Shown: one piece after another, positions 1 to 3,088 of the stretch
Numbering within the stretch: position 1 is the first letter of the stretch
Layout: the number at the start of each line of letters is the position of its first letter
From: a virus
DNA: 32,792 bases
Strand: one strand, 5' to 3'
IMG/VR virus record: IMGVR_UViG_3300021364_002105
Location: 1 to 32,792 of that record
Position numbers and translations under genes: made by a program
The notes under the pieces: generated by a model
Seen by the model: only the letters and a program-made list of their open reading frames with translations
Databases searched by the model: none
Told to the model about the DNA's origin: nothing

Positions 1-120
1 ATAGAAATAACCATTGCTACAGGTAATTCATTTACTTTAGAAACAGATACACCATCATGGCAAGGAGTAATCATAGGAAATGATGGTGATGCGATTGATA
101 TAAGAATTAAACAATTATAA
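1..120 (+). CDS. 3' end of an unidentified protein (partial)
   Basis: An open frame enters from the left edge and stops with TAA at 118-120, giving the last 39 residues of a protein. The visible tail alternates Thr/Ile with Gly, Asp and Asn and ends in IKQL, which suits a beta-rich secreted or structural protein. It is too short to assign. The curlin-like gene starts 8 nt downstream on the same strand, so the two may belong to one cluster. The start and most of the protein lie outside the window. Confidence 0.6.
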   Translation: MEITIATGNSFTLETDTPSWQGVIIGNDGDAIDIRIKQL

Positions 121-128: not shown

Positions 129-809
129 ATGTGGAAAAAAATTAAACAACAATTCTTTAAATATTGGATAATGCCTTGGGCACCATTTATGTTGCTTATA
201 GCACCGATATTCGCAGATGATAATCATGTTCATGTGGAACAAGTAAGCTCAGGTGATGATATGAGCCTCAGCGTAACACAAATAGGTTATGATAATGAGA
301 TAAGATTCTCATTTGACCACGCCTCAAATACATTCTCTTTTGAACAAAATGGTTCAGGCAACTATATTGGTTGGGTTTCATATTGGGGTTCAGGTAAAAG
401 TTGGGGTGGAGATGTAGATGGTACAGGTAATACTGAAAGCGTACTTCAATATGATGGTGCAACTTATGGTAGACATATATGGGGAAATGATAATACAGTG
501 AATGTATACCAAAGCGGAACACATACATTTAATTTAGATTTACATGCAGATGATACGGAACTAGACTTATGGCAAGAAGGCACAGGTTCTCATTATGCAC
601 AACAATATTTTTATGGAACAGCTGATGGTTCAACCGTTGACTTAATGCAAAAAGGTAATGCAAATCATAATGCTCAAGTGACATTAGATGGTAGTGAACC
701 AACAACATTAAACTTATTACAACAAGGCGGAACTAATCAATCATATTCTATTACAAATACATGTTATACTGTCGGCGGTTGTACAGTTAATGTTACTCAA
801 GGTAATTAA
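129..809 (+). CDS. Secreted curlin-repeat (CsgA/CsgB-like) protein
   Basis: The 226-residue protein begins with a basic stretch and a hydrophobic core (about residues 11-29, ending PIFA before DD), which reads as a Sec signal peptide. The mature part is made of strand-turn repeats carrying the curlin signature Q-x-G followed by Asn or His: VTQIG near 51, FEQNG near 73, VYQSG near 128, LWQEG near 149, LMQKG near 174, LLQQG near 198 and VTQGN at the C-terminus. The region around 80-125 is Gly/Trp-rich and less regular, and two Cys lie near 212 and 218. Curlins form extracellular amyloid fibres, and pelagimyophages are reported to carry curli-like clusters of unknown function. Its stop overlaps the cyclase ATG by 1 nt (TAATG), so the two are probably co-translated. 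Curlin architecture is clear; an adhesive, receptor-blocking or lytic role is open. Confidence 0.72.
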   Translation: MWKKIKQQFFKYWIMPWAPFMLLIAPIFADDNHVHVEQVSSGDDMSLSVTQIGYDNEIRFSFDHASNTFSFEQNGSGNYIGWVSYWGSGKSWGGDVDGTGNTESVLQYDGATYGRHIWGNDNTVNVYQSGTHTFNLDLHADDTELDLWQEGTGSHYAQQYFYGTADGSTVDLMQKGNANHNAQVTLDGSEPTTLNLLQQGGTNQSYSITNTCYTVGGCTVNVTQGN

Positions 810-2641
810 TGAAATATATAACGTCCATCTGGACAACAATAGCTTTAGTTTTTCTCATGGTTTGTATGAGAATAGCAGACCCTTCTTTATTAGAGCAAAC
901 AAGATTAAATGTATTTGATACATTAATTAAAACACTTCCTGAAGAACAATCCAACGAAATAGTATTACTCAATATAGGAGAGGAATCCCTAGAAGAGTTA
1001 GGACAGTTTCCTTGGCCTAGACAATACTATGCTCAAATGATAGCTGATTTGAGAAACAAAAATGCAGGTATGATAGGGTTTACTATTATGTTTCCAGAAG
1101 CAGATAGGTTTGGTGGTGATGAAGTATTTGCATCTTGGATAAAAGATAATGGTATTATATTAACACAAACAGCAGATGAATATGGTAGAAGTGATTCTGC
1201 TCCTTATGTTGGATATGCTACATTTGGTACCTCAGATCCTCTCGATTTTATTTACAAATATAAAGGATTAGTTACTAATATACCTGATATAGAATCAGGT
1301 GCATGGGGCCATGGGTTATCTAATGGTGCTCCAGAAGTGGATAATATAACAAGAAGAATACCGCTTATTTCTAATGTTAATGGTCAATTATATCCATCAT
1401 TTGCTTTAGAAACAATTAGAGTTTTAAATGATAAACCATCTTATACTATTAAATCAAATGAAGCTGGAATTGAAAGTATTGTATTAAGACCCTATGAAAT
1501 ACCTACAGATGCTGATGGTTCTATATGGTTAAAATGGAATACAAAATTTGAAGAAATAGAGTATATTAATAATCTATCAGATGTTACGGATTTAAAAGGC
1601 AAAACAGTTTTGGTCGGTGTGACCGCTAGAGGTTTGAGTCTACAAGTACCTACTCCTGGCGGATTAAAGTATCCCCATCAATTACAAGCGACAACTCTAC
1701 AGACGATTCTTTCTGAGAATCCAATCTCTCGGCCTCAGTACGCAACTCCTGTAGAATTGATTGTATCAACTCTGCTTGCTCTGCTTCTGGTTCTTTTGGT
1801 ATATCGTGCACCAATCTGGGTTTCTTTTGCAACCTTTCTGGTTCTTGTCGCCGGGACAGGCGGACTCGTGTATTATATCTGGAATAAATTTTTTATACTC
1901 CTCGACCTTAGTTATTCACTAATATTATATATAATAACTTATCTCTCAAGCGCACTGAATAATTTCTATAAGCAATTTATGTTACGACAACAGATTAAGA
2001 AACAGTTTGAGACTTATTTAGATCCTAGACAAGTTATGTTATTACAGAAAGACCCATCATTATTAAAGCTTGGTGGGGAAAGAAAAGAGATGACATTCCT
2101 ATTTATGGATATAGTAGGGTTTACTCCAATATCAGAACATTATAAAAACAATAATGACCCAGAAGGGTTGGTAGAGATTATAAATAATTATTTAGATACT
2201 ATGACTAAAATCATTCTTAAGAATGGTGGTACCATAGATAAATATATGGGTGATTGTATTATGGCATTTTGGAATGCACCATTGCCGTGTGATAATCATG
2301 CAGACTTGGCTGTAAAAACAGCATATGAAATAGTAGAGGCAGCAGATGTACTTATTGCAGAATTGGAAGAAAAAGGTTTACCTAGGATTGATGTTGGCAT
2401 TGGTATCAACACCGGCGACTGCATCGTCGGAAACATGGGCTCAGAATCTCGATTTGACTATTCCGTCATTGGAGATGCCGTCAACCTGGCAGCTAGACTC
2501 GAAGGCCAAACAAGAAATTATGATGGGGTTCGAGTGTTGTTATCACAGTTCACTGCTGGAAAGTGTACGGAGAGAAGCTTCACTAAAGTCGATAGAATAC
2601 AAGTCAAAGGTAAATCTGAGCTCATTACAATTTTCAAATAG
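809..2641 (+). CDS. Membrane CHASE2-domain class III adenylate cyclase
   Basis: This 610-residue protein has an N-terminal membrane anchor (about 6-21), a CHASE2-type extracytoplasmic sensor (about 30-310), three closely packed membrane helices (about 313-380) and a C-terminal class III nucleotide cyclase domain (about 425-610). The catalytic residues are present: metal-binding Asp434 in FLFMDIVGFT and Asp482 in KYMGD, purine-contact Lys478, and transition-state Asn559 and Arg563 in VNLAAR. The second base-contact position (Ser552) is Asp in mammalian-type enzymes and usually Thr in bacterial IIIb enzymes, so ATP is the likely substrate but this is inference. It should make cAMP on the cytoplasmic side. 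It is coupled to the curlin gene by a 1-nt overlap. Codon use is uneven: about 1600-1870 and 2395-2510 are richer in GC and use CTG/CTT and C-ending codons, unlike the rest. Such an enzyme is unexpected in a lytic phage. Confidence 0.88.
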   Translation: MKYITSIWTTIALVFLMVCMRIADPSLLEQTRLNVFDTLIKTLPEEQSNEIVLLNIGEESLEELGQFPWPRQYYAQMIADLRNKNAGMIGFTIMFPEADRFGGDEVFASWIKDNGIILTQTADEYGRSDSAPYVGYATFGTSDPLDFIYKYKGLVTNIPDIESGAWGHGLSNGAPEVDNITRRIPLISNVNGQLYPSFALETIRVLNDKPSYTIKSNEAGIESIVLRPYEIPTDADGSIWLKWNTKFEEIEYINNLSDVTDLKGKTVLVGVTARGLSLQVPTPGGLKYPHQLQATTLQTILSENPISRPQYATPVELIVSTLLALLLVLLVYRAPIWVSFATFLVLVAGTGGLVYYIWNKFFILLDLSYSLILYIITYLSSALNNFYKQFMLRQQIKKQFETYLDPRQVMLLQKDPSLLKLGGERKEMTFLFMDIVGFTPISEHYKNNNDPEGLVEIINNYLDTMTKIILKNGGTIDKYMGDCIMAFWNAPLPCDNHADLAVKTAYEIVEAADVLIAELEEKGLPRIDVGIGINTGDCIVGNMGSESRFDYSVIGDAVNLAARLEGQTRNYDGVRVLLSQFTAGKCTERSFTKVDRIQVKGKSELITIFK

Positions 2642-2915
2642 ATATCCTCAAGAAGAACTCTACTATTTTTGGGCAATCAATGCTATCGATGTATGGACCA
2701 CAAATCGTGGTTTAAAAGATCCAAGAATTTATGAAGTAAATCCAATTGTTGGTAAAGATCCTCACCTAGATAGATTAATACTATTTAAACTAGTGTGGGG
2801 TAATTTAATAATCCATACATACGAAAGAGATAACTTAGTATTTCCTAATACATTAATTACTATGGCTGTTATTAATAACTTTATTGTATTAGAAGAAAAC
2901 GGCCTTATATTCTAA
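2346..2915 (+). CDS. Signal-peptide protein with DUF5658-like C-terminus, overlapping the cyclase gene
   Basis: The frame is open for 189 codons, and the first ~98 lie in the +1 frame inside the cyclase gene. The start ATG has an AGAGG sequence 6 nt upstream. Residues 8-26 form a textbook signal peptide: KKK, then VYLGLMLALV, then STPATA before SS. The C-terminal half (about 105-189) has a hydrophobic region and the pattern D-x-W-T-T...E-x-N-P (115-133) typical of small DUF5658-type membrane proteins. No in-frame ATG, GTG or TTG lies between 2641 and that motif, so a start inside the cyclase gene, or some other recoding event such as +1 slippage at the cyclase stop, is needed to make the C-terminal half. 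The C-terminal half is convincingly coding; the N-terminal overlap is the less certain part. Confidence 0.6.
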   Translation: MYLLQNWKKKVYLGLMLALVSTPATASSETWAQNLDLTIPSLEMPSTWQLDSKAKQEIMMGFECCYHSSLLESVRREASLKSIEYKSKVNLSSLQFSNRYPQEELYYFWAINAIDVWTTNRGLKDPRIYEVNPIVGKDPHLDRLILFKLVWGNLIIHTYERDNLVFPNTLITMAVINNFIVLEENGLIF

Positions 2916-3013: not shown

Positions 3014-3088
3014 GACCCCTTCGTCTAGTGGTTAGGACACTGGGTTTTCATCCCAGCAACAGGAGTTCGAATCTCCTAGGGGTCACCA
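3014..3088 (+). tRNA. tRNA-Glu (anticodon TTC)
   Basis: A full cloverleaf can be drawn. The acceptor stem is GACCCCT with AGGGGTC. The D arm contains TAGTGGTTAGG. The anticodon stem CTGGG/CCCAG encloses TTTTCAT with anticodon TTC. The T stem AGGAG/CTCCT encloses TTCGAAT. The CCA end (3086-3088) is encoded. It reads GAA and GAG, abundant codons in this AT-rich genome. It lies between promoter P1 and the 11-nt repeats. Confidence 0.95.

Follow-up and report, generated by a model that had tools for sequence, protein, structure and literature searches.

Three genes on the plus strand at the 5' end of the virus record IMGVR_UViG_3300021364_002105 from IMG/VR (32,792 bases, hereafter the window) encode a curlin-like protein (ORF1, here curlin2), a membrane adenylate cyclase and a small exported protein, ORF3. 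The locus raises two questions: what holds these genes together, and whether ORF3, which begins inside the cyclase gene and is read there in the +1 frame, is a gene at all. An original prediction made from this DNA had listed the three open reading frames (ORFs), and they hold up as genes at the coordinates it gave. It had also described overlaps of one nucleotide or more; the single base shared by curlin2 and cyclase (TAATG) stands, whereas the overlap between ORF3 and cyclase is not a short coupling overlap but extends over 296 nt within the catalytic domain. This conserved overprinting of ORF3 on the cyclase had been missed and is the most unusual feature of the locus.

ORF3 is overprinted on the catalytic domain of the cyclase

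The elements involved are the following (window positions; aa, amino acids).

809-2641, plus strand: CHASE2 membrane class III adenylate cyclase, 610 aa, identified from Pfam matches, catalytic residues and identity to the cyclases of phages HTVC008M and Melnitz
851-1795 and 2084-2629 (both approximate), plus strand: CHASE2 domain and catalytic domain of the cyclase, from Pfam
2335-2339, plus strand: candidate ribosome-binding site AGAGG, 6 nt upstream of the ORF3 ATG, read directly
2346-2915, plus strand: ORF3, predicted exported DUF5658-like membrane protein, 189 aa; its codons 1-98 (2346-2641) share their DNA with the cyclase catalytic domain and are read in its +1 frame
2346-2426, plus strand: predicted signal peptide of ORF3, MYLLQNWKKKVYLGLMLALVSTPATA, lying over the cyclase motif GIGINTGDCIVGNMG in a different frame; conserved ATG and basic/hydrophobic/AXA pattern
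2640-2915, plus strand: non-overlapping, DUF5658-like part of ORF3 with three predicted membrane helices; invariant residues and AlphaFold model

Among the first 83 loci compared, 34 have the +1 frame open over the last 95-138 codons or so of the cyclase, and in these carriers it runs on for 250-334 nt beyond the cyclase stop (one contig stops short of this extension); in the remaining 49 the +1 overlap is 128 nt or less. The same division is found among 122 distinct cyclase 3' ends, a set from which exact duplicates of the last 600 nt were removed and in which near-duplicates remain: 76 have an overlap of 287-440 nt together with the downstream extension, the other 46 have one of 2-128 nt, and none lies in between. 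When the carriers were re-coded with their own synonymous codon usage, a mean of 9.8 stops was expected in the overlap, and 29 of 33 carriers have none; non-carrier cyclases have a mean of 5.7 stops in the same region. The 296-nt overlap of ORF3 with the cyclase is far beyond chance.

Synonymous change gives the same picture. Synonymous codon differences between pairs, expressed relative to a whole-gene value of 1 and taken in bins of 20 codons, amount in the carriers to 0.77, 0.51, 0.63 and 0.68 in the four bins covering codons 521-600, against 1.11, 0.96, 1.23 and 1.11 in the same bins of the non-carriers. Likewise, third-position differences per codon in the carriers are 0.222 in the overlap and 0.301-0.318 elsewhere, whereas those of the non-carriers, at 0.333, are higher in the overlap region than elsewhere. 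The suppression of synonymous change is confined to the overlap and to the carriers. Openness of the frame, avoidance of stops and suppression of synonymous change together argue that ORF3 is kept by selection as a coding sequence, and it is almost certainly a real gene, as judged from these sequence comparisons. A reverse-strand ORF at 1650-1832 was considered as a further overlapping gene and rejected, since synonymous change does not drop there.

In the literature searched, which was covered in part, there is no mention of overlapping genes in pelagiphages or of DUF5658, nor does the main text of Wittmers et al. (PMC9599517) mention DUF5658; the curli module itself is known, and the exported gene overprinted on its cyclase appears to be undescribed. 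Gene callers that reject long overlaps would discard ORF3. As it has apparently been overlooked, inventories of the curli module are incomplete.

Start codon and signal peptide of ORF3

The +1 open stretch of the carriers begins 3-36 codons ahead of the ATG at 2346, a position shared by nearly all of them, and in four loci (L060 and L065-L067) a stop immediately precedes this ATG. The first 27 residues of ORF3 resemble a signal peptide, with a basic start, a hydrophobic core and an AXA end, and are written over the GIGINTG...GNMG motif of the cyclase. The hydrophobicity of this region is 2.47, compared with a mean of 1.93 for re-coded sequences, and part of it is a by-product of the GIGINTG-type motif. 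A stop falls within the first 34 codons in 99% of the re-coded sequences and in 0% of those observed. Non-carriers, too, often have an ATG where ORF3 would start, and the start codon may therefore predate ORF3. The conserved ATG and the signal-peptide pattern support the earlier view of ORF3 as a predicted exported protein. The overlap offers a natural test case of how the second frame of a catalytic motif can come to encode a signal peptide.

The ORF3 product and its DUF5658 relatives

Beyond the cyclase stop ORF3 has invariant D, T, E, N, K and N residues, and its N-terminal part, which would be periplasmic, contains two adjacent invariant cysteines. In the AlphaFold model a signal helix and a long helix are followed by three membrane helices (residues 102-122, 141-158 and 165-184), these three having a predicted local distance difference test score (pLDDT) of 85-95. 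Pfam DUF5658 is matched at E<=1 by 27 of 30 ORF3 relatives (best 1.7e-6), and one of six relatives recovered by a genome search scores above the cut-off of the family, which is also present in cellular genomes, archaea included. A fold search with ORF3 gave no match in the PDB and one in BFVD (A0A218MM37, 3.5e-4, uncharacterised), and a single-protein pattern scan with ORF3 returned only ORF3 itself.

A tblastn search of the phage records for standalone DUF5658 relatives found none. Standalone DUF5658-like genes are nonetheless present in phages without the overlap, between curlin2 and cyclase in L043 and 3 kb upstream of CsgF in L049 and L050; all three proteins carry their own predicted signal peptides. 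Even where it is not overprinted, the domain therefore accompanies the module, and this tie, seen at the level of gene content, favours a role of ORF3 as an envelope accessory. In two other loci (L016:7256-7675 and L108:4011-4430) an additional DUF5658-like gene stands alone between curlin2 and cyclase, as well as the overprinted copy.

The curli module

The three ORFs are the 3' end of the type VIII secretion system (T8SS) module of pelagimyophages, CsgF-CsgG-curlin-FecR-curlin-adenylate cyclase, a module widely distributed among viruses that infect the most abundant marine bacteria. CsgF and CsgG in these phages were described by Zaragoza-Solas et al. (PMC7029224) and Buchholz et al. (PMC9004378), and FecR, the second curlin and the adenylate cyclase beside the phage curli genes by Wittmers et al. 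in 2022 (PMC9599517). The link between curli genes and a nucleotide cyclase, which the original prediction took to be undescribed, is thus published, and it is annotated in HTVC008M and Melnitz. In both of these phages the cyclase closes the run CsgF, CsgG, curlin, FecR-type, curlin, cyclase, in the gene order of the T8SS module of Wittmers et al.; unlike the window, they have no ORF3. The proposal of a single phage module co-occurring across relatives is borne out: among the 64 viral loci with at least 4.4 kb of upstream DNA, several of which come from the same contigs and are not independent genomes, CsgG and FecR lie upstream of the cyclase in all 64 and two curlins are present in 63.

Two further features of the module lie in the window.

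1-120, plus strand: C-terminal end of a FecR-domain protein, its gene cut by the window edge; stop at 118-120, residues identical to the FecR end of the near relative L004
129-809, plus strand: curlin2 (ORF1), second curlin-repeat protein with a predicted N-terminal export signal, 226 aa; CsgA/curlin matches, structural model and conserved place

In L004 the gene in question has a Pfam FecR match at 1.5e-9. Since bases 1-120 encode the FecR C-terminus, the window starts within the longer module.

Curlin2 matches the NCBIfam CsgA model at 5.1e-9, far below the model's cut-off, and the Pfam curlin repeat at 0.032, below the cut-off; the latter family is matched by 10 of 18 curlin2 relatives, with a best value of 5.2e-8. 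Its AlphaFold model (pLDDT 78) is all-beta with regular strand pairs, and its place between FecR and cyclase is conserved. The CsgA match, the Pfam matches at family level and the strand-pair model uphold the curlin-like identity proposed earlier. A fold search with this model gave no match at E <= 0.001 and a weak resemblance to beta-helical SufB/SufD. One member of the curlin2 alignment matches a PA14 domain (2.7e-6); it is most likely that of HTVC008M (L001:10638-11963), whose curlin2 carries a long N-terminal extension.

Other genes are found between curlin2 and cyclase in relatives of the window. IscU/NifU_N-like (6e-39) and IscA-like (5e-12) Fe-S assembly genes occupy this place in L099:3728-4473, and the same insertion occurs in L009, L013, L014, L020, L023, L024, L027, L116, L135, L137, L139, L145 and L149. 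A recurrent acidic protein of about 86-96 aa with a conserved membrane segment (LSPWELAYIALPMSVLAFYGLSIYAIFKW) and no Pfam match is also encoded between curlin2 and cyclase (L099:3456-3728, L093:4183-4473 and many others).

The cyclase

The window's cyclase matches CHASE2 at 9.5e-41 and Guanylate_cyc at 8.1e-20 in Pfam. Its counterparts in Pelagibacter phage HTVC008M and Methylophilales phage Melnitz share 46% and 36% identity with it, respectively. Asp434, Lys478, Asp482 and Arg563 are present in all 83 cyclases compared and Asn559 in 82, the exception being Melnitz with Ser; D434, D482, N559 and R563, the residues on which the original prediction made its proposal depend, are intact in close relatives. 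Lys478 and Ser552 occupy the base-selecting positions, where we take them to suit ATP. The cyclase reading frame is unbroken in 114 of 114 loci. With its CHASE2 domain, two metal-binding Asp, Asn and Arg, the protein is a class III adenylate cyclase, as read from its sequence, and production of cyclic AMP (cAMP) is predicted. In the Melnitz cyclase (L002:12001-14052) Ser replaces the catalytic Asn and Asp stands at the base-selecting position, so that its activity may differ. The C-terminal extension of the same enzyme was considered as a fused DUF5658 domain and rejected as unrelated.

Origin and exchange

In the genome collection the closest bacterial cyclase, about 41% identical, is that of L161, a metagenome-assembled genome of Caulobacteraceae, where it ends the locus CsgF-CsgG-curlin-curlin-FecR-cyclase, surrounded by bacterial genes. 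A second genome, L266, is arranged in the same way, with a cyclase 93% identical to that of L161; among 199 Caulobacteraceae genomes 15 have CsgF, two of them in this curli-FecR-cyclase form. The curli genes, FecR and the CHASE2 cyclase lie on one strand in these two loci as in the phage module; they differ from it in that both curlins precede FecR, the C-terminus of the cyclase is longer and ORF3 is lacking. ORF3 is absent from every bacterial locus examined. In several Thalassospira FecR directly precedes CHASE2 cyclases, with no curli genes nearby. The bacterial loci that combine curli genes with FecR and a CHASE2 cyclase suggest a cellular origin for the package as a whole and are tractable relatives for asking what a cAMP switch does for curli.

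The ORF3 carriers are scattered on a tree of cyclase codons 1-500, which requires eight changes; one change was found in 0% of 200 bootstrap trees. On a tree of codons 514-605 one change suffices, in a grouping without branch support to which the ORF3 frame itself may contribute by pulling residues together. The loci L040 and L045 illustrate this mosaic: they share 89% identity over codons 1-360 and 36% over codons 561-585, and in the latter stretch L040 has 74% identity with the main carriers. The mosaic would be explained most simply by recombination within the conserved catalytic domain, and the enzyme tail and ORF3 have probably spread together by this route.

Proposed function and alternative readings

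The module has gained an extra gene by overprinting. The explanation that we favour, and which as a whole we consider reasonably probable, is that of a module for curli display that includes a cAMP switch sensing the periplasm, together with an overprinted envelope protein of DUF5658 type. In the infected cell the phage CsgG-CsgF pore would export the curlin subunits, while periplasmic FecR and the CHASE2 domain would report the state of the envelope to the cyclase and gate its production of cAMP. A construct of Sinorhizobium meliloti CyaD1 without the CHASE2 domain makes cAMP constitutively (PMC5498481), consistent with CHASE2 gating the enzyme. ORF3 would start at the internal ATG 2346, be exported through Sec and sit in the inner membrane, with its N-terminal part in the periplasm, as a small accessory of the same envelope machine. 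There it would most likely modulate the CHASE2 cyclase or curlin secretion; that it acts on one of these two is put forward tentatively. Because the N-terminal half of ORF3 is written in the enzyme, the two would be inherited and exchanged as one cassette. A stricter version, in which ORF3 is a dedicated partner of its host enzyme, exported to bind the CHASE2 sensor and set cyclase output, within a cassette mobile by recombination, is doubtful; if true, an overlapping gene pair would encode an enzyme and its own envelope regulator.

Several observations weigh against this explanation. The 46 distinct cyclases mentioned above, and the cultured phages HTVC008M and Melnitz, have no ORF3, and the module can therefore work without it. 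The ORF3 of the window scores 0.071 (14.3 bits) against Pfam DUF5658 (PF18902), whose cut-off is 25.2. The AGAGG motif is patchily conserved, is also present in loci without ORF3 and constitutes weak evidence. Finally, no cyclic nucleotide monophosphate (cNMP)-binding protein or domain was found in eight phage records, for which reason the cAMP would be expected to act on receptors of the host.

Among the alternatives, ORF3 could be a lysis protein (spanin or holin-like) and the overlap an architecture like that of the Rz/Rz1 lysis genes, a reading that we judge unlikely. In phage lambda Rz1 is encoded in the +1 frame of Rz, and spanin genes frequently overlap (PMC6139136); there as here, an exported envelope protein is written in the +1 frame of another gene. 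ORF3 combines a predicted export signal with several predicted membrane helices, and the curli pore of Melnitz has been proposed to act in lysis (Buchholz et al., PMC9004378). However, the gene partnered with ORF3 is an enzyme and not an i-spanin, the host frame being its catalytic domain, and ORF3 is no lipoprotein, having no lipobox Cys near the end of the signal peptide. Outside the overlap its domain type is a known one. DUF5658 occurs also in cellular genomes including archaea, and the holin-annotated matches in the ORF3 fold search all have E values above 1.

That the module responds chiefly to iron, with FecR and the CHASE2 cyclase sensing the iron state and cAMP or ORF3 serving the supply of iron or Fe-S to the phage, is quite unlikely. 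FecR is upstream of the cyclase in all 64 loci, many relatives have the NifU_N/IscU-like and IscA-like genes described above, and import of siderophores was suggested by Wittmers et al. (PMC9599517). The window, however, lacks Isc genes, and FecR domains are also found in LysM proteins adjoining CHASE2 kinases, in a biofilm operon without a shown role in iron (PMC5192318). This Burkholderia BiofilmReg operon resembles the phage module in that a periplasmic FecR protein adjoins a CHASE2 sensor, there linked to biofilm; it differs in that the output is a histidine kinase, with no cyclase, and in having no curli genes.

Very unlikely, in our estimate, is a pair of Pycsar type, in which the cyclase would make a cyclic nucleotide on superinfection and ORF3 kill or arrest the cell, or in which the cyclase would jam the Pycsar system of the host. 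The fold is of class III, PADLOC PycC matches reach 2.2e-25, a small membrane protein adjoins the cyclase, and in L161 a gene of PycTM type (L161:11491-12084; PF18967, 8.8e-25) lies 440 nt downstream of the cyclase. Yet the PycC matches are restricted to the generic catalytic domain, the 93% identical cyclase of L266 has no PycTM gene next to it, and it is with curli genes, not with defence genes, that the locus is associated. ORF3 has no PADLOC match and, in Pfam, no PycTM/2TM-type or cyclic-nucleotide-binding domain. The Pycsar role raised by the original prediction thus comes down to the shared class III cyclase fold, ORF3 not being a PycTM protein.

A C-terminal extension of the cyclase made by +1 frameshifting, giving a cyclase-DUF5658 fusion, would suit the frame of ORF3 and its continuation past the cyclase stop, but a frameshift near that stop needs no open +1 codons upstream, and yet some 100 are always open, beginning near the conserved ATG and, in L060 and L065-L067, directly after a stop; we regard it as highly improbable. 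Practically untenable is a passive overlap, in which the open +1 frame is an accident of the conserved cyclase motif and the actual DUF5658 gene begins near the cyclase stop: the tendency of the GIGINTG-type motif to give hydrophobic +1 residues and the ATG common in cyclases without ORF3 agree with it, but it is already contradicted by the stops in re-coded sequences and non-carriers and by the suppression of synonymous change in carriers only.

Genomic context

The window derives from a T4-like phage, as its downstream part matches gp32 (5.6e-43), the N-terminal domain of gp59 and the OB domain of gp5. A tRNA-Glu (UUC) is located at 3014-3088, just past the 3' end of the module, and an AhpC/TSA peroxiredoxin (9.8e-23) is encoded by the phage at 6970-7491, adjoining the gp59 and gp32 genes.

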